Source: Sphingomonas changnyeongensis (GTDB taxonomy: Bacteria > Pseudomonadota > Alphaproteobacteria > Sphingomonadales > Sphingomonadaceae). From it: a stretch of DNA of 64,000 nucleotides. The translations under genes were made by a program, and so were the position numbers. This document shows positions 646 through 38,863 of the stretch, piece after piece. The first letter of the stretch is position 1. Every line of letters begins with the position of its first letter. Below the pieces are notes generated by a model. It ran no database searches and was not told the origin of the DNA. It saw nothing but the letters and a program-made list of their open reading frames with translations. The stretch spans positions 1,000,501 through 1,064,500 of the forward strand of contig NZ_CP047895.1 in the NCBI RefSeq assembly GCF_009913435.1. Reading direction: 5' to 3'.

Positions 646-800
646 ATGGTTGGGAAGAACGGCACCGGCCCGCTCCCCCACCCGGCCTCCCATCGACAGG
701 ATATGCTATGGGAGGCCGGGTGGGGGAGCGGGCCGGTGCCGCCCCCGCGCCGCGAGGCGCGGCACAAACAACCCGGTGCCGCCCCCGCGCCGTCAGGCGC
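646..800. repeat. Palindromic mosaic repeat, copy 1 (33-bp arms)
   Basis: Left arm 661-693 and right arm 708-740 are perfect reverse complements over 33 bases, separated by a 14-base loop (694-707). The arm begins GGCACCGGCCCGCTCCCCCA. On the left it is preceded by GGGAAGAAC. On the right it is followed by small GC hairpins of the form CGCGCC-GCGA-GGCGCG, an ACAAACAAC tail, and a second partial CCGGTGCCG unit. It fills the gap between yraN and gshB, both on the minus strand. The same structure recurs five more times in the window. Confidence 0.9.
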
Positions 801-820
801 GCAACCAGGACTCTCGCCCC

Positions 821-1174
821 TCAGCCGATCCACGCATTCTCGATATGGCGCGGCAGGCGGCGGGGGGCGATCAGCAGCACGTCGATGCGCACCGCATCCT
901 CGGGCCGGGCATAGCGGGGCAGCAGATATTCGGCTGCCGCCGCAACGCGGGCGAGCCGGCGTTCGTCGATCGCATGGTCGAGCGCGGCGTCGCTGGCGCG
1001 GGTCTTCACCTCGACAAAGGCGACCAGCCGCCCGCGCCGCGCGACCAGATCCACCTCACCCACCGGGGTGCGCACCCGCCGGTCGAGGATCTGCCAGCCC
1101 TTCAGCCGCAGATACCAGGCGGCGCGCTCCTCGCCGGCGCGGCCGCGGGCCTCGGCGGCGCGCCGGCCGGTCAT
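821..1174 (-). CDS. YraN family putative endonuclease (UPF0102)
   Basis: Small nuclease-fold protein of 117 residues, a normal size for UPF0102. The segment GEVDLVARRGRLVAFVEVKT (about residues 38-57) is the restriction-endonuclease-like core, with the Asp and the E-V-K metal-binding pattern. The cellular role of YraN is not settled. Its start overlaps the stop of rsmI by four bases (ATGA), so the two are translationally coupled. The rsmI-yraN-lpoA neighbourhood is also known from enterobacteria. Confidence 0.85.
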   Translation of the reverse strand: MTGRRAAEARGRAGEERAAWYLRLKGWQILDRRVRTPVGEVDLVARRGRLVAFVEVKTRASDAALDHAIDERRLARVAAAAEYLLPRYARPEDAVRIDVLLIAPRRLPRHIENAWIG

Positions 1175-2004
1175 GGCTTGAGCGCCAGCGCCCGCGCATA
1201 AAGCGCCTTGCGGTCAAGGCCGAAGCGCCGGGCCACTTCGCCCGCCGCCTTGGCCGCCGGCAGCCGGGTCAGCGCCTCGGCCAGCGCGGCATCGGCATCG
1301 TCCGCGCTGGGCGGCGCGGCGGCACCGGGCGGGGCGACGACGATCACCAGCTCCCCCTTGGGCGGCTGTTCGGCATAGCGCTCGGCCAGCTGGCCGAGCG
1401 TGCCGGTCACGCATTCCTCGAACTTCTTGCTGATCTCGCGCGCCACCGCCGCCTCGCGGTCGCCAAGCCCCGCGCCCAGTGCGGCCAGCGTCGCGGCAAG
1501 GCGCGGCCCGGCTTCGTACAGCACCAGCGTCGCGCGCACCGCCGCCACCTCGGCAATCGCATCGGCGCGCGCCTTGGCCTTGGTCGGCAGAAAGCCGAGA
1601 TAGAAGAACCGGTCGGTCGGCAGCCCGGCCAGGGTCAGCGCGGCGATCGCCGCGCACGGGCCGGGGATGGTGGTGACCGCGATGCCCGCCGCGTGCGCGT
1701 CGCGCACCAGCTTGTAGCCGGGATCGGAGATCAGCGGCGTCCCGGCATCCGACACCAGCGCCACCGCCTCTGCGGTCATGCGCGCGATCAGATCGGGCCG
1801 GACGCGGTCGGCATTGTGATCATGATAGGGCAGCATCGGCCGCCTGGCACCGATATGGTGGAGCAGCCGGGCGGTCACCCGGCTGTCCTCGACCGCCAGC
1901 AGGTCGGCACGGGCAAGAATGTCAGCGGCGCGCGGCGACAGATCGGAAAGATTGCCGATCGGCGTCGCGACGATGTAGAGGCCGGGCGCAAGGGAGTTGG
2001 ACAT
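1171..2004 (-). CDS. rsmI: 16S rRNA (cytidine(1402)-2'-O)-methyltransferase
   Basis: RsmI methylates the ribose of C1402 in 16S rRNA using S-adenosylmethionine. The 277-residue protein has the tetrapyrrole-methylase fold: GLYIVATPIGNLSDLS near the N-terminus, VEDSRVT, LVSDAGTPLISDPGY (about residues 77-91) for SAM binding, and IPGPCAAIAALTLAG. Length matches the family (about 280). Its start at 2004 faces the divergent lipoprotein gene, and its stop overlaps yraN. Confidence 0.93.
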   Translation of the reverse strand: MSNSLAPGLYIVATPIGNLSDLSPRAADILARADLLAVEDSRVTARLLHHIGARRPMLPYHDHNADRVRPDLIARMTAEAVALVSDAGTPLISDPGYKLVRDAHAAGIAVTTIPGPCAAIAALTLAGLPTDRFFYLGFLPTKAKARADAIAEVAAVRATLVLYEAGPRLAATLAALGAGLGDREAAVAREISKKFEECVTGTLGQLAERYAEQPPKGELVIVVAPPGAAAPPSADDADAALAEALTRLPAAKAAGEVARRFGLDRKALYARALALKP

Positions 2005-2090
2005 TGGGGATCGTCATGGCAGAGGCAGCGCCCGCGCGGCAACCTGAGAGTGGCCGGGGCACAGGCCAGGGGCGTGGCGGACGGACGCCC

Positions 2091-3248
2091 ATGCTGGCGA
2101 CGCGGCTGACGCCGGTCATCGGCCTGTTCGCGCTCGCGGCCTGCCAGACGATGGTGCCCAAGCGGCAGGCGCCGACGCCCGCCCCCGGGCCGGCGCAGAC
2201 CGAAACCGGCCCGGCGGCTGAGGAACTGCCGACCGACCAGAACCGCCACCGCATCGCGCTGCTCGTGCCGCTGACCGGCACCAATGCGGCGGTCGGCCAG
2301 TCGATCGCCAATGCTGCCAATCTTGCCGTGCTCGACACCGGCGGCAAGCGCATCCGCATGACCGTCTATGACACGGCGGTCGGGGCGGCCGGGGCCGCCG
2401 AGCGCGCGATCGCGGATGGGGCCAAGGTCATTCTGGGGCCGCTGCTGGCCGATGACGCGCGCATCATCGCCCCGGTCGCGGCAAAGGCGCGGGTGCCGCT
2501 GGTCAGCTTTTCCAACGATGCCGCGATCGCGGGCGCCGGCACCTTCGTCATGGGCTATTCGCCTGCCCAGTCGATCGACCGGGTCGTGCGCTTTGCGCGG
2601 GCGCGCGGAGCGACCCGCTTTGCCGGGCTGACGCCCACCGGCGTCTATGGCGACCGGGCGGGCACGGCGTTCCTGCGCGCGGTCGAAAGCGCGGGCGGGC
2701 AGGTGGTGTCGCTGCAAAGCTTCGACCGCAGCCGGGGCGGCCTTGCCGCCGCGGTCACCCGGCTGGGCCGGGGCAGCGCCTATGACGCGGTGCTGATCGC
2801 CGATGGCGGGCGCATCGCCGTGCAGGCCGCGCCGCTGATCCGCAAGGCCGGGGCGACCGAGGCCCGGCTGCTCGGCACCGAGCTGTGGAATGCCGAGACC
2901 GGGCTGGCGGCGATGACGCCGCTGGCCGGCGCGTGGTTCGCCAGCGTCTCGGACGGGCTTTATGCGCAGCTCGCCGCCAAATATCGCGCCCGTTACCAGA
3001 CCGCGCCCTACCGGATCGCGTCGATGGGCTATGATGCGGTGCTGCTCGTCACCCGCATCGCGCAGGACTGGCGCGTCGGCCAGCCCTTTCCGGTCGCGCG
3101 GCTGACCGATCAGGGCGGCTTTACCGGCATTGACGGCGCGTTCCGCTTCGGCCGCGACGGCGTCGCCGAACGCGCGCTTGAGGTGCAGGAAGTCGGCGCG
3201 GGCACGCTGGTCACCGTGTCACCGGCCCCGGCGCGCTTCGACGACTGA
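2091..3248 (+). CDS. LpoA-like penicillin-binding protein activator, lipoprotein
   Basis: A 385-residue envelope lipoprotein with a periplasmic-binding-protein type I fold (Peripla_BP_6/LpoA group). The N-terminus [18 protein letters not shown] is a lipoprotein signal with lipid-accepting Cys18. [19 protein letters not shown] begins the binding fold, and [18 protein letters not shown] and VPLVSFSND follow. LpoA in enterobacteria activates PBP1A, and the neighbourhood with rsmI and yraN supports this relationship. Alphaproteobacterial members are shorter and their partner is inferred. The frame is open back to base 2004, but the ATG at 2091 gives a proper signal peptide and is preferred. Confidence 0.8.
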
Positions 3249-3309
3249 CGAACGGGCGCACAGGCGCGGCAGCGGGCGGCCCCGTGCGGGACCGCCCGCC
3301 CCGGCAATC

Positions 3310-4560
3310 TTAGGGCAGCAGGATGCCGGCCAGCGCCGCCGACATCAGATTGGCGAGCGTGCCGGCGATCACCGCGCGCACGCCCAGCTGGGCGATCAGC
3401 GGGCGCTGATTGGGCGCCAGGCTGCCGGTCGCGGCCATCTGGATGGCGATCGAGCTGAAGTTCGCAAAGCCGCACAGCACGAAGGTGATGATCGCGCGGC
3501 TGCGGTCGCTGAACACCGTCGCCTGGCCAAGATCGATGAACGCCACGAACTCGTTGAGCACGATCTTGGTGCCGAGCAGCCCGCCCGCCGCCTGCGCCTC
3601 GGCCCAGGGGATGTTGATCAGCACCATCAGCGGTGCGAGCAGCGTGCCGAGCACGCCCTGGAAGCTCAGCCCCGGATAGCCGAACCAGCCGCCAATGCCG
3701 CCCAATATGCCGTTGGCCAGCGCCACCAGCGCGACAAAGGCGAGCACCATCGCCCCGACCGCGACCGCGATGCGCACGCCGGTCTGCGCGCCCATTGCCG
3801 CGGCCATGATGATGTTGGCGGCCTTTTCCTCTTCCTCATGCGCCTCGACGGCGGCGATCACCTCGTCCTCGACCGCGACCGGGGCGGCGGTGCCGCGCTC
3901 ATCGGGCATCACGATCTTTGCCATCAGCAGCCCGCCGGGTGCGGCCATGAACGATGCGGCGAGCAGATAGGGCAGCGATTCCGGCCCCAGAAAGCTGGCA
4001 TAGGCGGCCAGGATCGTGCCCGCGACGCCCGCCATGCCGACCGACATCACCGCGAACAGCTGCGACGGGGTGAGGGCGGCCAGATAGGGGCGGATGACGA
4101 GCGGCGATTCGGACTGGCCGACAAAGATGTTGGCCGCCGCGCACAGCGATTCGACCTTGGACACGCCGGTCAACCGCTCGATCGCCCCGCCGACCCAGCG
4201 GATGACGAACGGCATCACGCGCAGGTGATAGAGCACCGCGATCAGCGCGGCGAAGAAGATGATCACCGGCAGGCCCGAAATCGCAAAGGCGGTGCCGAAC
4301 TTCGGATCGCTCGCCAGATTGCCGAACAGCAGCCGCGTGCCGTCGCTGGCATAGCCGAGCAGGTTGGACACGCCGCGCGACAGCGCCTCGATCACCGCCC
4401 GCCCGGCGGGCACATAGAGCACGAGCACGGCGATCCCGGCCTGCAGCGCAAAGGCGGACCCGACGACGCGCGGGCGGATCGCCCGCCGGTTTGCAGACAA
4501 CAGCACCGCCAGGCCGAGAATGACGATGATCCCGGCCAGGCCGATCAACAGACGAGACAT
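3310..4560 (-). CDS. NupC/CNT family nucleoside transporter
   Basis: Inner-membrane concentrative nucleoside transporter of 416 residues, close to the 400-420 typical of NupC. It has an N-terminal helix pair, the Nucleos_tra2 core with [13 protein letters not shown] (the substrate/cation site region), and the C-terminal block with [10 protein letters not shown] and [20 protein letters not shown], both CNT hallmarks. About eight to ten hydrophobic segments can be seen. It is divergent from hslV, and its 3' end converges with the LpoA-like gene. The nucleoside specificity and coupling ion cannot be read from sequence. Confidence 0.9.
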
Positions 4561-4642
4561 TGGCTGGAACAGCCCCCCAAAACACGAAACGGCCCTTCTT
4601 GCGGGCAAATGGCGGCAAAGGCGAGTCCGCAAATCGGCAGCC

Positions 4643-4669
4643 GTTGCACAACCGCGCCCGCCCCCATAT
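4643..4669 (+). promoter_or_regulatory. Candidate sigma-32 heat-shock promoter of hslVU
   Basis: GTTGCAC at 4643-4649 and CCCCATAT at 4662-4669 resemble the heat-shock pair CTTGAAA/CCCCATNT with a 12-base spacer. The -10 match is complete and the -35 match is partial. HslVU is a classical heat-shock operon. Transcription starting about 7 bases after the -10 would begin almost at the hslV ATG (4678), giving a leaderless or near-leaderless mRNA. Confidence 0.5.
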
Positions 4670-4677
4670 CGCCGGCC

Positions 4678-5241
4678 ATGAACGCACAGGAACAAAACGG
4701 ACCCGGCTGGCACGGCACGACCATCCTCAGCGTGCGCCGGGGCGGCCGGGTGGTCGTGATCGGCGACGGTCAGGTGTCGATGGGCCAGACGGTGATGAAA
4801 CCCAATGCCCGCAAGGTCAGGCGGCTGCATGACGGCTCGGTGATCGGCGGCTTTGCCGGCGCGACCGCCGATGCCTTCACCCTGTTCGAGCGGCTGGAAC
4901 GCAAGCTGGAGACGCATCACGGCCAGCTGCTGCGCGCGGCGGTCGAGCTGGCCAAGGACTGGCGGACCGACAAATATCTGCGCAACCTGGAGGCGCTGAT
5001 GATCGTCGCCGACAAGGATGTGACGCTGATCCTGACCGGCAATGGCGATGTGCTGGAACCGGTGGGCGGGATCGCGGCGATCGGGTCGGGCGGGCAGTTC
5101 GCGCTCGCCGCCGCCCGCGCGCTGGCCGATTACGAGCCGGACGCCGAGGCGCTGGCCCGGCGGGCGATGGCGGTGGCGGCGGAGATCTGCGTCTATACCA
5201 ACGACCAGCTGACCGTCGAAGCCCTCGACAGCGCGGCCTGA
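4678..5241 (+). CDS. hslV: ATP-dependent protease subunit HslV
   Basis: Proteolytic subunit of the HslUV (ClpYQ) protease, an N-terminal-nucleophile threonine peptidase. The 187-residue protein starts with a 13-residue propeptide ending WHG, then [10 protein letters not shown], so Thr14 becomes the catalytic N-terminus after processing. [15 protein letters not shown] and the [15 protein letters not shown] block are diagnostic. It is followed 58 bases later by hslU. The ATG at 4678 is the start that leaves the usual short propeptide. Confidence 0.96.
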
Positions 5242-5299
5242 CCGCACGCAACCCCTTTCATCTCCTTGATTTGCGGCCGCCCGGCGGCCAGGACGGACC

Positions 5300-6601
5300 A
5301 TGCAGGACAAGCTTACCCCCAAGGCGATTGTCGGCGCGCTCGACGCGCACATCATCGGCCAGGCCGAGGCCAAGCGCGCCGTCGCCGTCGCGCTGCGCAA
5401 CCGCTGGCGCCGCCAGCAGCTCGGCCCCGAGCTGCGCGACGAGGTGACGCCCAAGAACATCCTGATGATCGGGCCGACCGGCTGCGGCAAGACCGAGATC
5501 AGCCGCCGCCTCGCCCGGCTGGCCGATGCGCCGTTCGTCAAGGTCGAGGCGACCAAGTTCACCGAGGTCGGCTATGTCGGCCGCGATGTCGAACAGATCG
5601 CCCGCGATCTGGTCGAGGAGGCGATCCGGCTGGAAAAGGAACGCCGCCGCCTCGCCGTCAAGGACAAGGCCGAGGCCGCAGCGATGGCGCGGCTGCTCGA
5701 TGCGCTGACCGGCAAGGATGCGAGCGAGGCGACGCGCAGCGCCTTCCGCCAGCGGTTCGAGGACGGGCATCTCGACGACAAGGAGATCGAGATCGAACTG
5801 GCGCACCAGCCGCAGATGCCGCTCGACGTGCCGGGCATGGGCGGGCAGATGGGGATGATCAACCTGTCCGACCTGATGGCGCGGGCGATGGGCGGCGGCC
5901 AGATGAAGCGCCGCAAGCTGAGCGTCCGTGCTGCCTGGGACAAGCTGATCGAGGAAGAGGCCGACCGCCGCCTCGACCAGGACGAGCTGAACCGCGCGGC
6001 GATCGCCGATGCCGAGGCGAACGGCATCGTGTTCATCGACGAGATCGACAAGATCGCCGTGTCCGATGTGCGCGGCGGATCGGTGAGCCGCGAGGGTGTG
6101 CAGCGCGATCTGCTGCCGCTGATCGAAGGCACGACGGTCGCGACCAAATATGGGCCGATGAAGACCGACCATATCCTGTTCATCGCCTCGGGCGCGTTCC
6201 ATGTCGCCAAGCCGAGCGACCTGTTGCCCGAGCTGCAGGGGCGGTTGCCGATCCGCGTCGAGCTGAAAGGGCTGAGCGAGGCCGATTTCGTCGCCATCCT
6301 GTCGGACACCAAGGCGTCGCTGCCGGCGCAGTACAAGGCGCTGCTCGCGACCGAGGGGGTGGCGATCGACTTCACCCCCGACGGCATTGCCGCGATCGCG
6401 CGCATCGCCGCCGAGGTGAACGGCCAGGTCGAGAATATCGGCGCGCGGCGGCTGCAGACGGTGATGGAAAGGCTGCTCGAACAGCTGAGCTTCGAGGCCG
6501 AGGAGCGCGGCGGCGAGACGGTGCTGATCGATGCCGCCTATGTCGAGGCGCAGCTGGCCGGCATCGCCCGCAATACCGATCTGTCGCGCTACATCCTGTG
6601 A
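5300..6601 (+). CDS. hslU: ATP-dependent protease ATPase subunit HslU
   Basis: AAA+ unfoldase that feeds substrates to HslV. The 433 residues are full length. Walker A GPTGCGKT is at residues 58-65, the pore motif GYVGRD lies shortly after (about 91-96), Walker B FIDEID is near residue 245, and the C-terminus ends LSRYIL, the tail that docks into HslV. The variable I domain occupies roughly residues 110-240. It lies in an operon with hslV and is followed by a hairpin. Confidence 0.97.
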
Positions 6602-6614
6602 TGCAATGAGCGGC

Positions 6615-6647
6615 GACGGGGCGGCGGCTGGACAGCGCCGCCCCGTC
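6615..6647 (+). terminator. Hairpin after hslU, possible terminator
   Basis: Perfect 12-bp inverted repeat, GACGGGGCGGCG (6615-6626) and CGCCGCCCCGTC (6636-6647), with a 9-base loop, 14 bases after the hslU stop. There is no clear T tract, so it may be a weak or Rho-assisted end. A second hairpin without T tract (GGCACGC/GCGTGCC, 6687-6709) follows. Confidence 0.5.
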
Positions 6648-6744
6648 ATCCTATAAGTCAATCATCTGCCCGCCCTTTCGGGACATGGCACGCCTGAGCG
6701 CAGCGTGCCGGACGAATGGAAAGAGCGGGCTGCCTGACGCTTGA

Positions 6745-6778
6745 AGCTGCCACCCCGGTTGCGGGGTGCGCGGCTTTT
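6745..6778 (+). terminator. Terminator/attenuator-like hairpin in the rpoB leader
   Basis: CACCCCG (6751-6757) and CGGGGTG (6762-6768) form a 7-bp stem with a GTTG loop. The stem extends imperfectly with AGC/GCT and is followed by TTTT at 6775-6778. It lies about 50 bases upstream of the rpoB ATG. A partial terminator ahead of rpoB is known in other bacteria (the rplL-rpoB attenuator of E. coli). Whether this one acts that way is inference. Confidence 0.45.
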
Positions 6779-6826
6779 CGTGTCGGCTGCGCGTTCGCAT
6801 TCTAACGGCGAGGCAAGCACTTACCC

Positions 6827-10987
<4,161 letters not shown>

Positions 10988-10999
10988 GCGGGGACAAAG

Positions 11000-11076
11000 C
11001 GGGGCGGCGCGGCCGCCCCGCCGCCTGCCCGCGACGATTTGCCCATATTGAGCCCCTGCCGCTTCGCCGGCAGGGG
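11000..11076 (+). other. Two hairpins in the rpoB-rpoC spacer
   Basis: CGGGGCGGC (11000-11008) pairs with GCCGCCCCG (11012-11020). CCCCTGCCG (11053-11061) pairs with CGGCAGGGG (11068-11076) around a CTTCGC loop. Neither has a T tract, so they are more likely mRNA processing or stability elements than terminators. The second sits just ahead of the rpoC Shine-Dalgarno region (GGAGC at 11081). Confidence 0.5.
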
Positions 11077-11090
11077 GACCGGAGCAAAAA

Positions 11091-21889: not shown

Positions 21890-21897
21890 GGTGGTCG

Positions 21898-22083
21898 GGT
21901 GTCGTTAGCTGGGAAGAACGGCACCGGAAGTTTGTTGATTGGGAAGAACGGCACCGGGTGTCGTTAGCTGGGAAGAACGGCACCGGCCCGCTCCCCCACC
22001 CGGCCTCCCATAGCGTAACCTGCCGTTGGGAGGCCGGGTGGGGGAGCGGGCCGGTGCCGCCCCCGCGCCGCGAGGCGCGCAAC
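21898..22083. repeat. Palindromic mosaic repeat, copy 2, with three tandem left units
   Basis: Arms 21979-22010 and 22027-22058 are perfect 32-bp reverse complements with a 16-base loop, TAGCGTAACCTGCCGT. Three copies of GGGAAGAACGGCACCGG (21911, 21941 and 21970) lie 29-30 bases apart on the left, the last one running into the arm. A small GCGCCGCGAGGCGC hairpin follows on the right and touches the dapD stop. It lies between convergent genes and could end transcription from both sides. Confidence 0.9.
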
Positions 22084-26025: not shown

Positions 26026-26073
26026 GCGGGGGAGCGGGCCGGTGCTGCCTGTGCACCGGCGGGCGCGCAGACC
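26026..26073. repeat. Degenerate remnant of the palindromic repeat
   Basis: GGGGGAGCGGGCCGGTGCTG just after the protease stop matches the right arm of the long palindrome, followed by a GC-rich GGCGGGCGCGC tail. The left arm is missing. It sits between two convergent genes, as the intact copies do. Confidence 0.6.

Positions 26074-29211: not shown

Positions 29212-29215
<4 letters not shown>
28139..29215 (-). CDS. sufD: Fe-S cluster assembly protein SufD
   Basis: Scaffold subunit of the SufBC2D complex, 358 residues. The N-terminus MSLALPSPRDEAWRWADLKA is the usual SufD R-x-E-x-W-R-x-T/A-D-L pattern. The core beta-helix is GASE-like repeats, and DDVKCAHGATVGELDRQALF near the C-terminus carries the conserved Cys/His region. 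It overlaps sufC upstream (29212-29215) and sufS downstream by four bases each. Confidence 0.94.
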
Positions 29216-29955
<740 letters not shown>

Positions 29956-29959
29956 GGTC

Positions 29960-30307
29960 TCATTTCCACTTTCCAGGATCCATCCCACCGGACATGACTT
30001 CCGCGAGAAGCTGCTCCAATCCGTCAAACTTCTGCTGCACAAAGGCGCTTCGCGTGTCGGGATCGGAGAACGCCGGCAGTTCAGCGAGTGCTGTCATGGC
30101 TCGTTCTATGGACTGCGCTCGAACCTCGGCGCACCCGGCCCGGGCAACCTCGAAAACAGCCGCCATCTTTGCGCGCCGGTTGGGCTTCTGGTTCATCGCG
30201 GCCTCGAACCGCTCGTTCAGGCATTGCGCGTAACTGTCCAGCGCCGGCTCCATTTGCGGCGGCAGCGGCGCGGCCGCAAATGCTTGGGCCAAGAGAAAGA
30301 GGATCAC
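29960..30307 (-). CDS. Unknown exported protein inside the suf operon
   Basis: A 115-residue protein whose N-terminus [17 protein letters not shown] looks like a short signal peptide. The rest is helical and charged, with two Cys (YAQCLNERF and [10 protein letters not shown]). No family is recognised. It sits between sufB and sufC, with its start overlapping the sufB stop by four bases and its stop five bases before sufC, so it is co-translated with them. An exported protein in a cytoplasmic assembly operon is unexpected. Confidence 0.7.
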
Positions 30308-31773
30308 CCGACGCTCCCCTCCAGCGAAATGCCCAGCAGCTTCTGCGCCTCGACCGCGAACTCCATCGGCAGTTGCTGCAGCACTTCCTTGGCGAAGCCG
30401 TTGACGATCAGGGCGACCGCGTCTTCCTGCCCCAGGCCGCGGCTCATCGCGTAGAAGAGCTGGTCGTCGCTGATCTTGCTGGTCGTCGCTTCATGCTCGA
30501 TCTGCGCGGACGGGTTCTTCACTTCGATGTACGGCACGGTGTGGGCGCCGCAGCGGTCGCCCAAAAGCAGCGAGTCGCACTGGGTGAAATTGCGGACATT
30601 TTCCGCCGTCGGGCCGACGCGGACGAGCCCGCGATAGGTGTTGTCCGACCGGCCGGCGCTGATGCCCTTGGAGACGATCGTCGAGCGACTGCCCTTGCCG
30701 AGATGGATCATCTTGGTACCGGTATCGGCCTGCTGGCGGTTATTGGTGACCGCCACCGAATAGAATTCGCCGACCGAATTCTCGCCCGCCAGCACGCAGC
30801 TCGGATATTTCCAGGTGATCGCGGAGCCGGTCTCGACCTGCGTCCATGACACCTTGGAGTTCCGGCCCTGGCAGAGCGCGCGCTTGGTGACGAAGTTGTA
30901 GATGCCGCCCTTGCCCTCGGCATCGCCCGGATACCAGTTCTGGACGGTCGAATATTTGATCTCGGCATCATCCAATGCGACCAGCTCCACCACCGCGGCG
31001 TGGAGCTGGTTCTCGTCGCGCATCGGCGCGGTGCAGCCTTCGAGATAGGAGACGTAGGAGCCCTTGTCGGCCACGATCAAAGTCCGTTCGAACTGACCGG
31101 TATTGGCCGCGTTGATGCGGAAATAGGTCGACAGCTCCATCGGGCAGCGCACGCCTTCGGGGATGTAGACGAAGGTACCGTCGGAAAACACCGCGCTGTT
31201 CAATGTCGCGAAATAATTGTCGTGGATCGGCACGACCTTGCCGAGCCACTTGCGGACGAGGTCCGGATATTCGCGCACCGCTTCCGAGATCGACAGGAAG
31301 ATGACGCCCGCCTTTTTCAGCTCCTCGCGGAAGGTGGTCGCGACCGAGACCGAATCGAACACCGCGTCGACCGCCACCTTGCGCGCGCCCTCGACGCCGG
31401 CGAGCACCTTCTGCTCCTCGATCGGGATGCCGAGCTTTTCATAGGTGCGGCGGATTTCGGGATCGAGCTCATCAAGGCTCTTGAGCGTCGGCTTCGCCTT
31501 CGGCGCGGCGTAATAGTAGGCGTCCTGATAGTCGATCGGCGGGATCGACAGCTTCGCCCAGTCCGGGCTGTCCATGGTCAGCCACAGGCGGAACGCCTTC
31601 AGGCGCCAGTCGAGCATCCATTCCGGCTCGTTCTTCTTGGCCGAAATGAAGCGGACAATGTCCTCGTTCAGCCCCTTGGGGGCGAATTCCTGCTCGATCT
31701 CGCTGGTGAAGCCCCATTCATAGGTGCTCAGCTTCTCGGCGGCCGCAAAGGCTTCTTCGTTGCGCGTCGCCAT
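30304..31773 (-). CDS. sufB: Fe-S cluster assembly protein SufB
   Basis: Core scaffold subunit, 489 residues, the family length. Visible blocks are [20 protein letters not shown] at the N-terminus, [40 protein letters not shown], and the C-terminal [20 protein letters not shown] with the cluster-assembly Cys, followed by [16 protein letters not shown]. The start ATG at 31773 shares one base with the stop of the Rrf2 regulator. Confidence 0.96.
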
Positions 31774-32180
31774 CAGGCGGCTCCTGCTAGGGTGGCCAGG
31801 CTGACGCCCGACAAAGAGGCGCGGATTGCGCCGTTGACCGCGCCCCAATGCGGGCGCACCTGACACGCGCCCTCAAGCGCACAGTCGTGGCGGCCTTCCT
31901 CGACACAGGCGGTCATCGCGATCGGGCCTTCGACCGCCTCGACAATGTCGGCAAGGCTGATATCGGCCGGGGTGCGGGTGAGGATGAAGCCGCCGCCGCC
32001 GCCACGTGCCGAGAGGAACAGCCCGGCCTGCGCCAGCCGCTGCAACAGCTTCTGCGTGGTGGGCAGGGGAATGCCGGTTTCATCGGCGACCATATTGGCG
32101 GACAGGCGCGCGCCATCGCCCGCACGGGCGGCGGCGGCCATGATCACCACGGCATAATCGGCAAGGTTGGACAGGCGCAT
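31773..32180 (-). CDS. Rrf2 family regulator of the suf operon (SufR/IscR-like)
   Basis: A 135-residue winged-helix repressor or sensor. The N-terminal helix-turn-helix [16 protein letters not shown] is typical of Rrf2. Three cysteines, Cys92, Cys100 and Cys106 ([14 protein letters not shown]), match the Fe-S-binding spacing of IscR-type members, so it probably senses Fe-S status. It heads the suf operon and likely regulates itself and the genes behind it. An upstream ATG at 32207 is possible but lies inside the candidate operator. Confidence 0.9.
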
Positions 32181-32206
32181 GGGTTCAGGCGGACCGTTCG
32201 GGTTCA

Positions 32207-32227
32207 ATCAGACTGTTCTTGTCCGAT
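32207..32227 (-). promoter_or_regulatory. Candidate Rrf2 operator upstream of the suf operon
   Basis: ATCAGAC (32207-32213) and GTCCGAT (32221-32227) form a 7-bp dyad with six of seven matches across a 7-base spacer. It starts 26 bases upstream of the Rrf2 ATG. Rrf2 regulators bind dyads of this size next to their own genes. The assignment is by position and symmetry only. Confidence 0.5.
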
Positions 32228-32563
32228 TGCATGTGGGCGCGGCGGGCCTTTGGGTCAAGCCGGAAATGTCAGGTCCGGGCCGAGGCGGTGTTTGTCTGAG
32301 CCCCGGCACCGGGTGTCGTTGACTGGGAAGAACGGCACCGGGAGTTGTTAGTTGGGAAGAACGGCACCGGCCCGCTCCCCCACCCGGCCTCCCATAGCGT
32401 AACCTGCCGTTGGGAGGCCGGGTGGGGGAGCGGGCCGGTGCCGCCCCGCGCCGTGAGGCGCGCAACAAACAACTTGGAGCGGGCCGGTGCCGCCGTGCGG
32501 CGTAAGCCGCAATACAAACAACTCGTACCCGCGCCGTGAGGCGCAGCACAAACACACCCCCGC
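32228..32563. repeat. Palindromic mosaic repeat, copy 3, with flanking modules
   Basis: The arms at 32363-32394 and 32411-32442 are perfect 32-bp complements around the loop TAGCGTAACCTGCCGT, the same loop as copy 2. GGGAAGAACGGCACCG units lie on the left at 32325 and 32354. On the right are three small GC hairpin modules (GCGCCGTGAGGCGC, GTGCGGCGTAAGCCGC, GCGCCGTGAGGCGC), each followed by AACAAACA-type tails. The element fills the gap between the suf regulator promoter and the AraC gene, and no gene is seen in it. Confidence 0.9.
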
Positions 32564-33412
32564 TCAGGTCTCCGCGACCAGCGGAGCGACCTCGCCGGCA
32601 AAGGCGGTGCGGCGCAGCGTCAGCCGGGTCAGTTCGGGCAGGTCGCTGGTCAGCCGGGTCGGGGTGATGCCGGTGAAATGCTTGATCTCGCGGATGCAGT
32701 GCGACTGATCGTAAAAGCCGTGATCAAGCAGGTCCGCCGGGCTGGCCTGACGCCGGGCGAGGATCACCGCCGCGCGCAGCGCCCGGTATTTGCGCGCCAG
32801 CAGCTTGGGCGGCGCGCCGTAAAGCCGCTTGCACAGCCGCTCGATCTGGCGGCGGCACAGACCGGTCGCCGTCACCAGATCGGCAATGTCGGGGCTGGGG
32901 CTGCCGGCCAGCCAGGCATCGACCGCGCGGGTGAAGTCGCGCGACCGGTCCGGTCCTTCGGCGATCAGCCGGGCGAACATCGGCGTCGCCGCCGCGATCT
33001 TGGCGGCAATGTCGGGCGCGGCGCGGATGGCGGCCGCGGTCTCGTTCAGCCCGGGGCCGAACAGCTGGGTCGCATCGATCACCCGGTTGGCCATGGCCGA
33101 AGCGTCCATGGCGATCATCGCCCCCCAGCCGGAAGGCAGGATGCCGACGCCGAACACCTCGACCGGGCCGTCGATTTCGACATGGCTGGGGGCGGTCGTC
33201 GGGCCGACCAGCTGGATCGCGGGGCCGGCCTGCACATGGCCGTCAGCGAATCGGTAGGTGCCGCGGCCGCGCAGCAGGAAGCGGAACTGGGCCAGATCGG
33301 CGCGCTCATCGTCAGCAAAATGCGGCACATCGGCCCGGAAATGATAGAAGACCGAAAGATATTCGGCGAGCGCCGGATCCGGCGCGGCATAGTCGAGCGC
33401 GATCGACCCCAT
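32564..33412 (-). CDS. AraC family transcriptional regulator
   Basis: A 282-residue regulator with an N-terminal ligand-binding part (about 1-160) and a C-terminal AraC double helix-turn-helix (about 180-260). Recognisable segments are DIADLVTATGLCRRQIERLC and LLARKYRALRAAVILARR, then DHGFYDQSHCIREIKHFTGI, the second-helix signature with F-x-D-x-S-H. The effector is unknown. It is divergent from threonine ammonia-lyase, but a small-RNA-like unit lies between them. Confidence 0.88.
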   Translation of the reverse strand: MGSIALDYAAPDPALAEYLSVFYHFRADVPHFADDERADLAQFRFLLRGRGTYRFADGHVQAGPAIQLVGPTTAPSHVEIDGPVEVFGVGILPSGWGAMIAMDASAMANRVIDATQLFGPGLNETAAAIRAAPDIAAKIAAATPMFARLIAEGPDRSRDFTRAVDAWLAGSPSPDIADLVTATGLCRRQIERLCKRLYGAPPKLLARKYRALRAAVILARRQASPADLLDHGFYDQSHCIREIKHFTGITPTRLTSDLPELTRLTLRRTAFAGEVAPLVAET

Positions 33413-33464
33413 CTGGGTGCCCCCATCCTGTCCCCGCTGCAGGATAAACGGCAGTTGATCGAAT

Positions 33465-33600
33465 GAAAAGCGGCCCGGCCGAAACGGATTCGGCCGGGCC
33501 TTGAGGTCAGGAACTCCCTTGGAGGGGGAGCCCTTCGGGTCGCAAGATCTTCATAACGGCGCGCGCGGCGATTCGGATAGGACAGATGCGACACGCAGTG
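33465..33600 (-). ncRNA. Putative small RNA with anti-Shine-Dalgarno loop
   Basis: Read on the minus strand, this gap between divergent genes ends in a perfect 12-bp hairpin (GGCCCGGCCGAA / TTCGGCCGGGCC, 33472-33500) followed by GCTTTTC, an intrinsic terminator with no annotated gene before it. Just ahead are two compact hairpins, CCCGAAGGG and CTCCC-CCTCCAA-GGGAG, the second exposing CCTCC, complementary to Shine-Dalgarno sequences. A 34-codon frame (MPGGTACRICPIRIAARAVM...) also ends just before the terminator, so a small protein is the alternative. The 5' end is not determined. Confidence 0.45.
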
Positions 33601-33660
33601 CCGCCGGGCATTGTTGACGTAGCGGCATGACAGAGCCGGTCCGACTGGTTAAGGCGGGCC

Positions 33661-34917
33661 ATGGCTTCCGTTCCGTCCACCCCTGCCGCCCTTTCTGCCG
33701 CCGATCTGCCGGTGTCGCTGCCCGATATCGAGGCGGCTGCCGCGCGGCTCGCCGGCGCGATCGTCCGCACCCCGACGCTGCACAGCCAGACGCTGTCGGC
33801 GATGACCGGGGCCGAGGTGTGGCTGAAGTTTGAAAATCTGCAGTTCACCGCCGCCTACAAGGAGCGCGGCGCGCTCAACACCCTGCTGCAGATGGACGAG
33901 GCGGCGCGGCAAAAGGGGGTGATCGCGGCCTCTGCCGGCAATCATGCGCAGGGGCTTGCCTATCACGGCAATCGGCTGGGCATTCCCGTCACCATCGTGA
34001 TGCCGCGTCCGACGCCGACGGTGAAGGTCACGCAGACCGAGGGGCATGGCGCGCAGGTGATCCTGGAGGGCGAGACGTTCGACGCCGCCTATGCCCATGC
34101 CCGGCGGCTGGAGGCGGAACGCGGCCTCACCTTCGTGCATCCGTTCGATCATCCGCACATCATCGCCGGGCAGGGGACGGTCGCGCTCGAACTGCTCGCC
34201 GATGCGCCGGAGATCGACACGCTTGTCATCCCGATCGGCGGGGGCGGGCTGTTTTCGGGCATGGGCACCGCCGCGCGCGGCATCCGCCCGGACATCGAAC
34301 TGGTGGGCGTGCAGGCCGAGCTTTATCCGTCGATGTATGCGCTGACCAAGGGGCTGGACCTCGCCTGTGCGGGCGACACTCTGGCCGAAGGGATCGCCGT
34401 CAAGCAGCCGGGCCTGCTCACCCGCCAGTTCGTGCAGGCGCTCGCTGACGACATCCTGCTGGTGTCCGAGCGCGATCTGGAACGCGCGGTCAGCCTGTTG
34501 CTGCAGATCGAGAAAACGGTCGTCGAGGGCGCGGGCGCGGCGGGGCTGGCGGCGCTGCTCGCCCATCCGGGCCGATTCGCCGGGCGGCGCGTGGGCGTGG
34601 TGCTGTGTGGCGGCAATATCGACACCCGGCTGCTCGCCAATGTGCTGCTGCGCGATCTGGCCCGGTCGGGGCGGCTGGCGCGGCTGCGGGTGCGGCTGCA
34701 GGACCGGCCGGGCGCACTGTTCAACGTCGCGCGCATCTTTCACGATCAGCAGGTCAACATCATCGAGGTCTATCACCAGCGGGTGTTCACCACCCTGCCG
34801 GCCAAGGGGCTGATCACCGACATCGAATGCGAAACCCGCGACCGCGCGCATCTCGACCGGCTGATGACGGCCCTGCGCGCCGACGGTTATGAGGCGAGCC
34901 TCGTCGAACTGGCCTGA
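33661..34917 (+). CDS. ilvA: Threonine ammonia-lyase (threonine dehydratase)
   Basis: PLP enzyme that deaminates threonine to 2-oxobutyrate. The 418 residues comprise a catalytic domain (about 25-330), with PLP Lys67 in FTAAYKERGALN, SAGNHAQG and the glycine loop PIGGGGLFSGMG. A single C-terminal ACT-like domain follows (RLRVRLQDRPGALFNVARIF). This single-ACT architecture is shared by catabolic and some biosynthetic enzymes, so the isoleucine role is probable, not proven. The start has AAGGCGG upstream. Confidence 0.9.
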   Translation: MASVPSTPAALSAADLPVSLPDIEAAAARLAGAIVRTPTLHSQTLSAMTGAEVWLKFENLQFTAAYKERGALNTLLQMDEAARQKGVIAASAGNHAQGLAYHGNRLGIPVTIVMPRPTPTVKVTQTEGHGAQVILEGETFDAAYAHARRLEAERGLTFVHPFDHPHIIAGQGTVALELLADAPEIDTLVIPIGGGGLFSGMGTAARGIRPDIELVGVQAELYPSMYALTKGLDLACAGDTLAEGIAVKQPGLLTRQFVQALADDILLVSERDLERAVSLLLQIEKTVVEGAGAAGLAALLAHPGRFAGRRVGVVLCGGNIDTRLLANVLLRDLARSGRLARLRVRLQDRPGALFNVARIFHDQQVNIIEVYHQRVFTTLPAKGLITDIECETRDRAHLDRLMTALRADGYEASLVELA

Positions 34918-35217
34918 CCGGATTTTCCGTTCGGGTGCTTTTTGAGTTTGTCGCGGCACCGGCCCGCACCCCCACCCGGCCACACGGGCGGCAGGATACG
35001 CTATGGGAGGCCGGGTGGGGGTGCGGGCCGGTGCCGCTCGTGCGGCGCGAGCCGCACCACAAACAATCCGCGCCCGCCCCGCACCACAAACAACCCCAGC
35101 CCAGGCAAATCCCGTCCCCGCAAAAAAGCTCTGCCAACGCGGCCCGCTATCGGGTAAACCTCGTCTTCACGATCTGCGGGCTAGCGCTCGGCGGGATCGG
35201 ACGGAGGATCGGAGACG
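34918..35217. repeat. Palindromic mosaic repeat, copy 4 (27-bp arms, compensating change)
   Basis: Arms at 34955-34981 and 35009-35035 are perfect 27-bp complements. Here the arm reads CCCGCACCCCCACC instead of CCCGCTCCCCCACC, and the right arm carries the matching GGGGGTGCGGG, so a base pair has changed on both sides. Right-hand modules (GTGCGGCGCGAGCCGCAC, ACAAACAA) extend to about 35095. The remaining stretch to 35217 holds no gene; it contains the bpt leader with GGAG at 35211. Confidence 0.88.
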
Positions 35218-35973
35218 TTGAGCGCACCATTTCGCTTTCCCCGCTTCTTCGTGACCAGCCCCAATCCCTGCCCCTATCTGCCGGGGCGGCAGGAACGGAA
35301 GGTGTTCACCGAGCTGAACGGCCAGCATGCGGCCGAGCTCAATGACGCGCTGGGCCGGATCGGCTTTCGCCGCAGCCAGAGCGTCGCCTACCGGCCGAGC
35401 TGTCCGGAATGTTCGGCCTGCATTTCGGTACGCGTCGTGGCGCATGATTTCGAGCCGAGCACGACCCAGAAACGCACGCTCAAGCGCAACCGCGATCTCG
35501 AGGTCACGGCCTGCCGGCCCTGGTCGACCGACGAGCAGTTTCAGCTGCTGCGCCGCTATCTGGCCGCACGCCATCCAGGCGGCGGCATGTCGGGCATGGA
35601 CGAAATGGACTATGCCGACATGGTCGAACAGACGCCGGTCAACACCCATGTCATCGAATATCGCGAGCCGCGTGTCGGCGGGGCGCAGGGCCGGCTGGTC
35701 GGCGCCTGCCTGACCGACCAGCATGCCGATGGCCTGTCGATGATCTACAGCTTTTACGATCCCGACCATGCCGAGCGGCCGGGCCTGGGCAATTTCATCA
35801 TCATGGATCACATCCTGCGCGCCCGCGCCGCCGGACTGCCCTATGTCTATCTCGGCTATTGGGTGCAGGGATCGCAGCGCATGGCCTATAAGACGCGCTT
35901 CCGCCCGATCGAGCGGCTGACCGGCACCGGCTGGGTGCGATTCGAACCCGAATCGGTGCCGCAGCCGATGTGA
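35218..35973 (+). CDS. bpt: Aspartate/glutamate leucyltransferase (Bpt)
   Basis: Transfers leucine from Leu-tRNA to proteins with N-terminal Asp or Glu, marking them for ClpAP through the N-degron pathway. It has 251 residues. The N-terminal Cys motif [16 protein letters not shown] and the C-terminal GNAT-like part with [29 protein letters not shown] and [11 protein letters not shown] are typical of the bacterial Ate1 relatives. The start codon is TTG at 35218, with GGAG three bases upstream; no ATG fits. Confidence 0.9.
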
Positions 35974-36000
35974 GTGGCGTATCGCCGCACCGGCGGGCGT

Positions 36001-36150
36001 TTGTTCGGGAAGAACGGCACCGGGTGTTGTTGACTGCGAAGAACGGCACCAGCCCGCTCCCCCACCCGGCCTCCCAACGGCAGGATACGCTATGGGAGGC
36101 CGGGTGGGGGAGCGGGCTGGTGCCGCCCCCACGCCGCGAGGCGCACAACC
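36001..36150. repeat. Palindromic mosaic repeat, copy 5 (loop inverted, compensating change)
   Basis: Arms at 36045-36076 and 36093-36124 are perfect 32-bp complements. The outer arm reads GGCACCAGCCCGC and is matched by GCGGGCTGGTGCC, again a paired change relative to copies 1-3. The loop ACGGCAGGATACGCTA is the reverse complement of the copy 2/3 loop apart from one base, so this copy lies in the opposite orientation. GAAGAACGGCACC units precede it at 36010 and 36039. It is between convergent bpt and ctrA. Confidence 0.9.
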
Positions 36151-36167
36151 CAGCCTCACCCCACCGC

Positions 36168-36204
36168 AAAAAAGAAAAGGCCGGGGGCTGGCCCCGGCCT
36201 TTTC
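36168..36204. terminator. Bidirectional intrinsic terminator between bpt and ctrA
   Basis: GAAAAGGCCGGGG (36174-36186) and CCCCGGCCTTTTC (36192-36204) form a perfect 13-bp stem with a GCTGG loop. T runs are at the 3' side on either strand (CTTTTCC on plus, and CTTTTCTTTTTTTGC on minus from the A-rich left edge). It ends ctrA and bpt transcripts. Confidence 0.85.
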
Positions 36205-36226
36205 CTCCCCCCGGCTGGAAGCCCGG

Positions 36227-36934
36227 TCAGGCGGCGGCGGTTGCCGGCGCCTTGTCCTCGTCGGCGTCGCGCAGCACATAGCCGCGGCCCCACACCGTCT
36301 CGATGTAATTGTCGCCGCCACAGGCAAGGCTGAGCTTCTTGCGCAGCTTGCAGATGAACACGTCGATGATCTTCAGTTCCGGCTCGTCCATCCCGCCATA
36401 GAGATGGTTGAGGAACATTTCCTTGGTCAGCGTCGTGCCCTTGCGCAGCGAAAGCAGCTCGAGCATCGCATATTCCTTGCCGGTCAGATGGACGCGCGCG
36501 CCATCGACCTCGACGGTCTTGGCGTCCAGATTGACCGCCAGCTTGCCGGTGCGGATGACCGACTGGCTATGGCCTTTCGACCGGCGGACGACCGCATGGA
36601 TGCGCGCCACCAGCTCGTCGCGGTGGAACGGCTTGGTCACATAATCATCGGCACCGAAGCCGAAGCTGCGGACCTTGGAATCCATTTCCGAAATGCCCGA
36701 CAGGATCAGCACCGGCGTCTGCACCTTGGCGGTGCGCAGCTTTTTCAGCACGTCATAGCCGTGCATGTCGGGCAGGTTCAGGTCGAGCAGGATGATGTCG
36801 TAATCATACAGCTTGCCAAGATCGAGGCCTTCCTCGCCCAGATCCGTGGTGTAGACGTTCAGACCTTCGGCATTGAGCATCATCTCGATCGACTTGGCGG
36901 TCGTCGGCTCGTCTTCGATCAGCAACACGCGCAT
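36227..36934 (-). CDS. ctrA: Cell-cycle response regulator CtrA
   Basis: Master OmpR-type regulator of the alphaproteobacterial cell cycle and motility. It has 235 residues. The receiver has the phospho-acceptor Asp51 ([18 protein letters not shown]), LILSG and [12 protein letters not shown]. The C-terminal winged helix carries [23 protein letters not shown] and [11 protein letters not shown]. The C-terminus ends ATAAA, as in CtrA proteins degraded by ClpXP. In Sphingomonadales CtrA is usually not essential and controls motility and gene-transfer functions. A TTAA-N7-TTAA box lies upstream. Confidence 0.96.
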
Positions 36935-37248
36935 GGCGGCAGGCCCCCTGGTTGTCGCGGCCTGATGCGCCCCTCATGCGCAACCTGCCCCGGTCACCTT
37001 CATTAACCAGTTAACCTCTGCGGGCAAAAGGTTAATATGCATTTAATGCCACGATACGTCCGGTTCCGCGCCAATGGGGGCATCGGCATGATCGCGATGC
37101 GGGGCGGTGCGCCGCGCAGAAGGAGGCGGGCAAGGGGGCTGAACAGCATCGTCGGGCACCGGTGCGGCGGATGCGCGACCGGCCCGGCAACAGCGACCCC
37201 GGGCCTGCCAGGTATCGCGCTAAACAATCAGTCAAATCAGGGGGATAA
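36935..37248. other. ctrA upstream region and spacer
   Basis: This 314-base gap holds the ctrA promoter region with its candidate CtrA boxes (separate entry) and then GC-rich sequence from about 37050 to 37248 without a convincing gene. Short open frames here lack start signals and a family pattern. Confidence 0.5.
37003..37046 (-). promoter_or_regulatory. CtrA boxes upstream of ctrA
   Basis: TTAATATGCATTTAA at 37032-37046 is an exact TTAA-N7-TTAA full CtrA box. A second pair, TTAACCAGTTAA at 37003-37014, has half-sites with a 4-base spacer. They lie 69-112 bases upstream of the ctrA start. CtrA controls its own promoter in Caulobacter; here autoregulation is inferred from the site. Confidence 0.75.
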
Positions 37249-37324
<76 letters not shown>

Positions 37325-37635
37325 GCACCATGTCCCGCGCCCGGCCCAGCCCGGCGCGAAGCAGGGCCATTAGCGGCGCTTTTGCCGGGATGCAACGCCT
37401 GTTGCGCATCGGCGGGCGGCGGACGATGATTTTTTCCCGGCGATGATTTTTTCCGTGGGCGATTTTTTCGGTCACGGCGGGCGCGGCCGGGCCGGGGCAA
37501 GCCGTAACGGCAGCCATGGTCCGGCACCGCCGCCGCGCCTGACCGGAACCCGCCGGCCACCGGCGGCGAGCCTTGTTTCGCGCCCGCGTCCCGGCCTAAC
37601 GAGGCGTGCACGCTGACCATATAAGGAGAGAGAGA
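37325..37635. other. Spacer with AT-rich tandem repeat
   Basis: A 311-base gap between the tRNA and the oxidoreductase. It contains three direct repeats of CGATGATTTTTTCC or a shortened form at about 37423, 37441 and 37460, in strong contrast to the GC-rich surroundings. On the tRNA strand these are A tracts about 100-150 bases upstream of the tRNA. The part before the oxidoreductase holds its Shine-Dalgarno sequence AAGGAGAGAGAG (37622-37633). No gene is seen. Confidence 0.5.
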
Positions 37636-38625
37636 ATGTCCCGCGCCTGGATCCTCAAATCGCGTCCCGCCGGCATGCCCGGCCCGGACAATATCGCGCT
37701 TGTCGACCTGCCGTCCCAGCCGCTTGCCGAAGGGCAGATCCGCGTCGCCAATCGCTGGCTGTCGGTCGACCCCTATATGCGCGGCCGGATGAACGACGTG
37801 AAAAGCTATGTCCCGCCGTTCCAGATCGGTGAGCCGCTGCAGGGCGGCGCGGTCGGCGAGGTGATCGAGAGCGCCAATCCCGCCTTTGCGGTCGGTGACA
37901 AGGTGCTGCACATGGCCGGCTGGCGCGACGAGGCGGTGGTCGGCCCCGAAATGATGCCGCAAAAGCTGCCGGCGCTGGGCGTGCCGGATGAAACCTTCCT
38001 GCACAATATGGGCCTGACCGGCGGCACCGCCTATTTCGGGCTGCTGCGCTGCGCCGCGGCACAGCCGGGCGACATCGTGTTCGTGTCGGCCGCGGCGGGC
38101 GCGGTCGGCTCGGCGGTGGTCCAGATCGCCAAGCTCAAGGGGATGACGGTGATCGGTTCGGCCGGCGGGCCGGACAAGGTCGCCTTCGTCAAGGAACTGG
38201 GGGCCGATCACTGCATCGACTACAAGGCTGGTCCGGTGCTGCCGCAGCTGATGGCGGCCGCGCCCAAGGGCATCGACGTCTATTTCGACAATGTCGGCGG
38301 CGAGCATCTGGATGCCGCCTTCGCCACCGCCCGCCAGAATGCCCGGTTCGCCATCTGCGGCATGATTGACGTCTATAACGACGGCAAGCCGCAGGAGATG
38401 AAGTATCTGATCCGCACCATCCCGGCGCGGATCATGATGCGCGGCTTCATCTACACCGATTACATGGCCGAGTTCCCGGTGTGGCAGCAGGAAATGGCCG
38501 GCTGGGTGACCAGCGGCCAGATGAAGGCGCGCACGACGGTGATGGACGGGCTCGACTCGACGCTCGACGCGTTCCTCGGCCTGTTCTCGGGCGCCAACAC
38601 CGGCAAGATGCTGGTCCGGCTTTGA
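37636..38625 (+). CDS. NADP-dependent oxidoreductase (MDR, curA/PTGR-like)
   Basis: Medium-chain zinc-independent reductase of 329 residues. The N-terminal segment LSVDPYMRGRMNDVKSYVPP is diagnostic of the leukotriene B4 dehydrogenase/CurA group. The Rossmann domain has VFVSAAAGAVGSAVVQIAKL, GSAGGPDKVAFVKELGAD and DVYFDNVGGEHLDA. Members reduce activated double bonds of enones; the natural substrate is not predictable. A strong Shine-Dalgarno sequence precedes the ATG, and an intrinsic terminator follows the stop. Confidence 0.92.
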   Translation: MSRAWILKSRPAGMPGPDNIALVDLPSQPLAEGQIRVANRWLSVDPYMRGRMNDVKSYVPPFQIGEPLQGGAVGEVIESANPAFAVGDKVLHMAGWRDEAVVGPEMMPQKLPALGVPDETFLHNMGLTGGTAYFGLLRCAAAQPGDIVFVSAAAGAVGSAVVQIAKLKGMTVIGSAGGPDKVAFVKELGADHCIDYKAGPVLPQLMAAAPKGIDVYFDNVGGEHLDAAFATARQNARFAICGMIDVYNDGKPQEMKYLIRTIPARIMMRGFIYTDYMAEFPVWQQEMAGWVTSGQMKARTTVMDGLDSTLDAFLGLFSGANTGKMLVRL

Positions 38626-38636
38626 TGTCGTGAGGG

Positions 38637-38664
38637 CGGGGGCGCATGGCGCCCCCGTCTTTTT
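38637..38664 (+). terminator. Intrinsic terminator after the oxidoreductase
   Basis: CGGGGGCGC (38637-38645) and GCGCCCCCG (38649-38657) form a 9-bp stem with an ATG loop, followed by TCTTTTTG. It lies 12 bases after the stop codon. Confidence 0.85.
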
Positions 38665-38863
38665 GTGCGGCTCACGCCGCACGAGCGGCACCGGGCCGCT
38701 CCCGCTTGTTTGTGCTGCGCCTTGCGGCGCAGGGGCGGCACCAGCCCGCTCCCCCACCCGGCCACCCAACGGCAGTATATTGTGGGTGGCCGGGTGGGGG
38801 AGCGGGCTGGCGCCGCGACAACAAAGACTCCCGGTGCCGCAACCGCGCCGGGAGGCGCGCAAC
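38665..38863. repeat. Palindromic mosaic repeat, copy 6 (compensating change)
   Basis: Arms at 38737-38768 and 38783-38814 are 32-bp complements with one mismatch and a 14-base loop ACGGCAGTATATTG. The inner arm reads CCACCCA and is matched by TGGGTGG, whereas other copies have CCTCCCA/TGGGAGG. On the left are inverted modules (GTGCGGCTCACGCCGCAC, TTGTTTGTGCTGCGCC); on the right is GCGCCGGGAGGCGC next to the peptidase stop. It is between convergent genes. Confidence 0.88.

Follow-up and report, generated by a model that had tools for sequence, protein, structure and literature searches.

Long palindromes with inward-facing flanking modules at gene ends in Sphingomonas changnyeongensis and its relatives

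What keeps the two arms of a long palindrome alike, copy after copy, in the gaps between bacterial genes? The question is raised by a 64,000-nt stretch of the Sphingomonas changnyeongensis genome (hereafter the window; C1:1000501-1064500 of a genome with 3,005,093 bases in 2 contigs), in which six long palindromes were described by a first-pass annotation as a covarying intergenic mosaic family, and all six were found again where it had placed them. The palindrome, called P here, belongs to a real and widespread repeat which resembles the repetitive extragenic palindromes (REPs) and the bacterial interspersed mosaic elements (BIMEs), but differs from REPs in tag, stem length and transposase. 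The first-pass annotation missed that P is flanked by modules that face inward and whose order is polar with respect to replication; this flanking structure and its replication polarity are new here, and no open-access paper was found that deals with the P repeat or with modules of this kind being polar along the replichores.

A repeat family with covarying arms

P spans 82 bp and has a loop of about 14-18 nt. In the window, outer arms measure 28-34 bp and loops about 14-16 nt; copies 1, 2, 3, 5 and 6 have contiguous perfect arms of 34, 33, 33, 33 and 28 bp, respectively (34 bp in copy 6 if one mismatch is allowed), and copy 4 has 28 perfect outer pairs followed by a mismatched patch adjoining the loop. 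Perfect arms of at least 15 bp (loops up to about 20 nt) occur in the window only in copies 1, 2, 3, 5 and 6, and three dinucleotide shuffles of the window gave 4, 1 and 0 arms of at least 12 bp, the longest being 13 bp. The paired arm changes reported earlier were confirmed (T/A to A/T in copy 4, G/C to A/T in copy 5 and a T/A swap in copy 6), and the G/C to A/T pair occurs in copy 6 as well as in copy 5. As had been noted, the window holds no copy beyond 38.9 kb; on the chromosome, the next copies, at 1078964 and 1081559, follow after about 40 and 42 kb. Half a P arm (GGGGGAGCGGGCCGGTGCTGC), likely a decayed copy, is present in a short convergent gap at window positions 26028-26048.

A sequence-only search of the genome, in which 40 of 92 candidates were scored, gave 40 places. 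The covariance-model search of the whole genome that had been proposed was run with a model built from 33 copies, and it placed the family at at least 76 distinct sites, all on C1, and also in relatives; both the further copies and the paired substitutions on which the family had been staked therefore exist. The 76 places are a lower bound, and all counts over 76 copies given below are among the matches listed. The model matched 18 of 59 relatives' genomes at E 0.001, and 123 of 297 genomes of the family (taken as Sphingomonadaceae), in 52 of 89 genera, at E 1e-5 with the S. changnyeongensis genome included and with strict filters by which weak matches are lost. Within the genus, P was found in one further genome, G003 (80% complete), and the model gave no match at E 0.001 in the four congeners G001, G002, G004 and G005. 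Contigs C97, C31 and C54 of G003 begin inside or beside P, and draft assemblies therefore probably break at P repeats and undercount them. In named genomes, a pattern of loop plus inner arm was present in at least 111 stretches; nearly all those listed belong to Sphingomonas, Sphingobium, Hephaestia and Novosphingobium, and one carries the label Hyphomonadaceae. Spread by phages or plasmids was rejected, as P occurred in 0 of 50,697 phage records and in 3 of 72,556 plasmid records, all three sphingomonad.

Many loops carry CAGG-A/T/G-TA..CT, which is recognisable in S. changnyeongensis, G032 and G247, and others have shorter forms such as CAGTATCAT; among the matches listed, 2 of 76, 5 of 19 and 19 of 58 loops, respectively, were unassigned by exact words. 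The modules outside P end in GGCACCGG, which is the base of the P arm, and are of three types: A (GGGAAGAAC), B (a hairpin with a 4-nt loop after GTTTGT) and C (GTCGC). Among modules located in gaps within 400 bp of P, 248 of 250 face the palindrome (A 99/99, B 116/117, C 33/34), the count being drawn from 283 matches after 12 farther off and 21 inside predicted genes were left out. The same plan is realised with different modules, TTTGTCAGA-hairpin-CGCGGCACC, in G247, which belongs to another genus. In addition, 13 fragments of P arms were found in the flanks of 12 copies, and many composites, by reading, end in GTTGTTTGT...ACAAACAAC. The loop occurs in two directions, independently of the flanks (24/13 vs 20/17, p=0.48).

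Covariation of the arms was measured in a cross-genome set of 20 sequences from 19 genomes (G011 gave two, and a shorter G007 match was left out). In this set 96.2% of cells pair, and both-side changes occur at 14 of 33 pairs in 60 cells; none of 500 shuffles reached either value, and slid controls were lower. The 76 S. changnyeongensis copies showed both-side changes at 5 of 33 pairs, with 1 of 500 shuffles as high, and the 40 copies from the sequence-only search showed them at 4 of 33 pairs, with 9 mismatched cells in 1,317. Over the outer 30 pairs, 52 of the 76 copies are without mismatch and 17 have one to three mismatches, and 7 carry an indel of one base in the C5/G5 run. Swaps are chiefly T/A to A/T, for which A-A and T-T half-way forms exist, and G-T and A-C mismatches are similarly numerous (22 vs 24; 12 vs 8 in S. 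changnyeongensis and 10 vs 16 across genomes); these numbers, together with the A-A and T-T intermediates, therefore give no sign of a wobble path. A patch beside the loop is inverted in 4 of the 76 copies, clearly in three and more loosely in one. The earlier claim that covariation means a kept stem holds for the stem, but covariation alone is no proof of a kept function, because template switching between the arms can make paired changes in one event and can also invert loops (PMC8794818). Paired arm changes without G-U preference, and loops in two directions, fit template switching better than RNA selection alone.

Polarity with replication

The gene hemE is a usual neighbour of the alphaproteobacterial origin, and hemE at 657.5-658.5 kb is taken here as a likely origin marker. 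In the stretches analysed, GC skew between 0.75 and 2.06 Mb is for the most part positive and outside this range for the most part negative, exceptions aside, and dnaA lies away from hemE, at 2.57 Mb. Among 75 listed copies, the order A/C-P-B is found 34 times and reversed 5 times on the right replichore, and is reversed 33 times and direct 3 times on the left (Fisher p=1.4e-12 over both); one further copy has B on both sides. In sum, 67 of the 75 copies read origin, A/C, P, B, terminus, a number that includes two copies in which B was found on one side but the opposite side could not be assigned. The typing of 14 copies was done by eye. When only automatic types are used, the rule holds for 56 of the 64 copies that have B on one side alone (p=8e-10). 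Each module type beside P behaves likewise: A modules are 26 plus and 4 minus on the right replichore and 2 plus and 43 minus on the left (p=8.7e-14), B modules are 6 plus and 30 minus against 32 plus and 3 minus (p=8e-11), and C modules are 8 plus and 1 minus against 2 plus and 11 minus (p=0.0015). The best unsupervised breakpoints, 609-717 kb and 1.875-2.287 Mb, bracket hemE and the opposite terminus region and also give 67 of 75, and 300 shuffles reached at most 55.

Gene orientation was rejected as the cause of this polarity, since 39 of 42 copies in convergent gaps alone follow the replichore (one more is unassignable). Composition was also rejected by an argument from sequence: one flank is G/T-rich and the other C/A-rich, and as inward-facing modules give opposite flank compositions, leading-strand skew cannot explain both sides. 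In G247, where 58 listed copies were examined, a polarity is seen in 31 of the 41 copies that carry both module classes (p=0.003), with 36 T and 16 S modules on the origin side and 15 T and 37 S on the terminus side (p=7e-5), the classes being defined post hoc and the terminus assumed opposite hemE. A trend in G032, judged by eye alone, is left out of account. The polarity is thus strong in S. changnyeongensis, provisional in G247 and absent in G103. Copies are also concentrated in the origin half in S. changnyeongensis (49/76, p=0.015), G247 (43 of 58 matches listed) and G103 (24/27), and this enrichment is not clear in G032 (12/19). One copy among the matches listed lies in C1:1.875-2.41 Mb, near the terminus. 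Within the window, copies 1-5 obey the polarity rule and copy 6 is reversed (Table 1).

Table 1. Palindromes and flanking modules in the window (window coordinates)
Feature	Position	Strand	Remark
A unit, left of copy 1	652..659	+	GGGAAGAAC end
P copy 1	660..741	.	34-bp perfect arms, 14-nt loop
Two B units, right of copy 1	742..806	-	hairpin modules facing P
Three A units, left of copy 2	21896..21977	+	array, about 29 bp each
P copy 2	21978..22059	.	33-bp perfect arms
B unit, right of copy 2	22060..22083	-	extends to end of convergent gene
Two A units, left of copy 3	32304..32361	+	
P copy 3	32362..32443	.	33-bp perfect arms
Three B units, right of copy 3	32444..32555	-	one with P-arm fragment (GGAGCGGGCCGGTGCC)
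C unit, left of copy 4	34940..34953	+	GTTTGTCGC
P copy 4	34954..35036	.	28 perfect outer pairs, A/T swap; mismatched, partly inverted patch by loop
B unit, right of copy 4	35037..35070	-	
Two A units, left of copy 5	36000..36043	+	
P copy 5	36044..36125	.	33-bp perfect arms, G/C to A/T pair
B-like unit, right of copy 5	36126..36150	-	by eye; exact hairpin pattern missed it
Two B units, left of copy 6	38660..38734	+	polarity reversed relative to copies 1-5
P copy 6	38735..38816	.	34-bp arms, one mismatch
C unit then B unit, right of copy 6	38817..38866	-	

Elsewhere in the window, at 49906-49968, a terC RNA (Rfam RF03067) scores above the gathering threshold.

Proposed template switching and competing explanations

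The reading preferred here, to which a probability of about one half is given, is that P has spread through the sphingomonads and persists at gene 3' ends, its arms being kept alike mainly at the DNA level by template switching. A replication fork would meet P and the nascent strand would switch to the other arm as template, which may repair a mutation or spread it to both arms at once, and may sometimes invert the loop. The A, B and C modules would accumulate on the flanks, probably through slippage or through template switching that restarts at GGCACCGG. Leading and lagging strands would enter P from opposite sides, so that module history could differ between the origin and terminus sides, and placement at gene ends may reflect tolerance, with a possibly useful 3' hairpin in RNA. 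That the two sides of P are assembled by different fork strands, with one kind of module gathering towards the origin and another towards the terminus, arms continually re-copied, the loop flipping randomly and the copies recording fork direction and template switching, is a tentative and rather doubtful extension. Compensatory changes and inverted loops are described as products of template switching in an excerpt of PMC8794818, and an excerpt of PMC7202029 reports strand bias in quasipalindrome correction. P has both compensatory pairs and inverted loops, with loop reversal between orthologues resting on one pair.

Turnover was followed at 16 loci of G003, nine of which map to the stretches of the S. 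changnyeongensis genome that were compared: two are empty in S. changnyeongensis, one is cut at a contig end and six are alignable. Loop direction is kept in five of the six alignable pairs and reversed in one (756844), and the modules differ around the orthologous P at 481699. The two empty sites have diverged junctions, and no clear target duplication, the mark looked for in a MITE, was seen there. At the copy 2 junction, P-family sequence in G003 is accompanied by three B units. At the 3' end of copy 2's gene, G004 and G002 carry unrelated palindromic repeats (L319 and L318, just before 1501), the latter of which begins CGTCATCCCGG, like CGTC REPs in our own reading, and no palindromic repeat was found at this gene end in G001 and G005.

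Several points weigh against template switching as the keeper of P. The further pair types in the S. changnyeongensis set are weak, as 47 of 500 shuffles were as high, and most sequences were gathered with a model that rewards pairing and so favours intact stems. Alignment was possible for only six orthologous pairs; the single pair with a reversed loop also differs in its right-hand module, which makes exchange with another copy possible. The polarity rule of G247, fixed beforehand for G103, did not hold there (9 T and 10 S on the origin side, 11 T and 12 S on the terminus side, p=1, 27 copies). Moreover, template switching leaves both the sorting of module types by fork direction and the origin of new loci unexplained. 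Selection on a 3' RNA hairpin could also keep the stem, and a wobble preference would be hidden if both strands were transcribed between convergent genes.

That P is a selected bidirectional 3' RNA hairpin, protecting or ending transcripts of convergent and upstream genes, is considered unlikely, although its placement would suit such a role. The gene-end bias suspected earlier is pronounced, with 75 of the 76 copies following at least one gene 3' end. By our own gene calls, 43 copies lie in convergent, 32 in tandem and 1 in divergent gaps with none overlapping a gene, and the six window copies divide into three convergent and three tandem gaps, in agreement with the first-pass annotation. The median distance to a gene 3' end is 66 bp, and the convergent share (43/76) exceeds that of other gaps of the same stretches (59/432, p=7.5e-15), which were picked around copies plus six control stretches and are not a random genome sample. 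The whole gap of copy 2 also folds strongly as RNA (z -8.05), and two of the four congeners without P (G004 and G002) have other palindromic repeats at the same gene's 3' end; the other two (G001 and G005) have none there. However, T-rich tails (5 T in 8 bases) occur at only 7 of 152 arm ends, so that P lacks the U-tract of an intrinsic terminator; there is no G-U preference, tandem copies alone giving 1 GT vs 3 CA (2 vs 4 with another pairing); and 174 of the 297 family genomes are without a match at E 1e-5 under the strict filters. A terminator scan found 13 candidates against 10.1 expected from shuffles, with P itself uncallable as the scan permits loops of 3-8 only, and it did call some of the B modules that flank copies 3 and 6. 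A terminator-like hairpin lies directly after copy 5 (window 36177-36195, minus strand), and P is therefore not the sole 3' structure there. In a scan of the window, no Rfam family reached its gathering threshold on P, and at a low threshold copy 2 matched only generic hairpins, mostly microRNA, far below gathering, which were rejected as identities.

It is less probable still that P and its modules form a non-autonomous mobile element, copied through single-stranded DNA of the lagging-strand template by an HUH-type enzyme that sets the polarity. The 67 of 75 copies whose polarity follows the replichore, the two loci filled in G003 and empty in S. changnyeongensis, and the shared ends of the composites speak for it, as does the lagging-strand targeting described for IS200/IS605-type elements in an excerpt of PMC6006769. 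Against it, the genome gave no Y1_Tnp match in a search aimed at this transposase family alone, the two empty sites lack a clear target duplication, P has by eye no GTAG or CGTC tag beside it, and G103 shows no polarity. The last of these also tells against the least probable idea, that the polar modules are functional chromosome-orientation signals, such as sites like the FtsK-orienting polar sequences (KOPS) or other fork- or segregation-related sites. Such signals would accord with the replichore polarity in S. changnyeongensis and with the origin-half concentration in three of four genomes, but module sequences differ between genera, and the A-unit word GGGAAGAA is unskewed outside the repeats (3 vs 3 in 638 kb), on which ground a KOPS role of the modules was rejected. 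Separately, GGGCAGGG is strongly leading-strand skewed outside the repeats in the same 638 kb (63 vs 11), which is consistent with a KOPS of the GGGNAGGG type.

Comparison with known repeats

If template switching does keep its arms alike, P would be a natural many-copy record of this process at palindromes in living bacteria, and would test whether covarying stems really imply RNA function. Replichore polarity is not what one would expect of a repeat that lacks a visible Y1 transposase, and it would link the growth of the repeat to the synthesis of the leading and lagging strands. The intergenic palindromic mosaics RIME/ABC and Bru-RS of other alphaproteobacteria are likened to P by description only.

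The earlier remark that the arms are longer than those of usual REPs, in a REP/BIME-like style, is borne out by the 33-pair stem and the intergenic mosaic arrangement; excerpts of PMC3733652 give REP stems of 5-13 or 8-9 bp. The lack of a REP transposase, noted for the window, extends to the whole genome, where PF01797 (Y1/RAYT) had 0 matches and control matches were obtained in 8 of 14 genomes. In the four bases beside each arm of the 76-row alignment, no GTAG tag was seen by eye, nor a CGTC tag. The B units, also read by eye, showed no CCA tail.

According to the same excerpts (PMC3733652), REPs occur at gene 3' ends, including CGTC-1 of S. wittichii, and CGTC REPs without a transposase are known. 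P shares with the RAYT-associated GTAG REPs and BIMEs its many intergenic palindromes, 3'-end placement and mosaic arrays, but its arms of 33 bp contrast with their stems of 5-13 bp, and it has neither a GTAG tag nor a Y1/RAYT match in the genome. With CGTC REPs, P shares sphingomonad hosts (among others), placement at 3' ends and the lack of a dedicated transposase, and its B hairpins, which have 4-nt loops, are close to theirs in stem size (PMC3733652, excerpts), but P is far longer and bears no CGTC tag. P is a BIME-like mosaic in that palindromes occur together with other motifs at many intergenic sites. BIMEs proper are composed of REPs (palindromic units, PU), whose tags and stem size are absent from P.

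Tandem arrays of REPs in P. fluorescens SBW25 are described in an excerpt of PMC3116915 as running forward at one site and reversed at a second, the latter placed about 2 Mb from the origin. In this strain REPINs and arrays are tied to RAYTs and 16-mer REPs, whereas in the present family a palindrome stands at the centre and the modules on its two sides differ. Hairpins maintained by template switching share compensatory pairs and inverted loops with P, but the excerpt of PMC8794818 treats RNA genes, whereas P is a multicopy intergenic DNA family. P is distinct from known REPs in its long arms, its two loop directions and, in S. changnyeongensis, its fork-related polarity.

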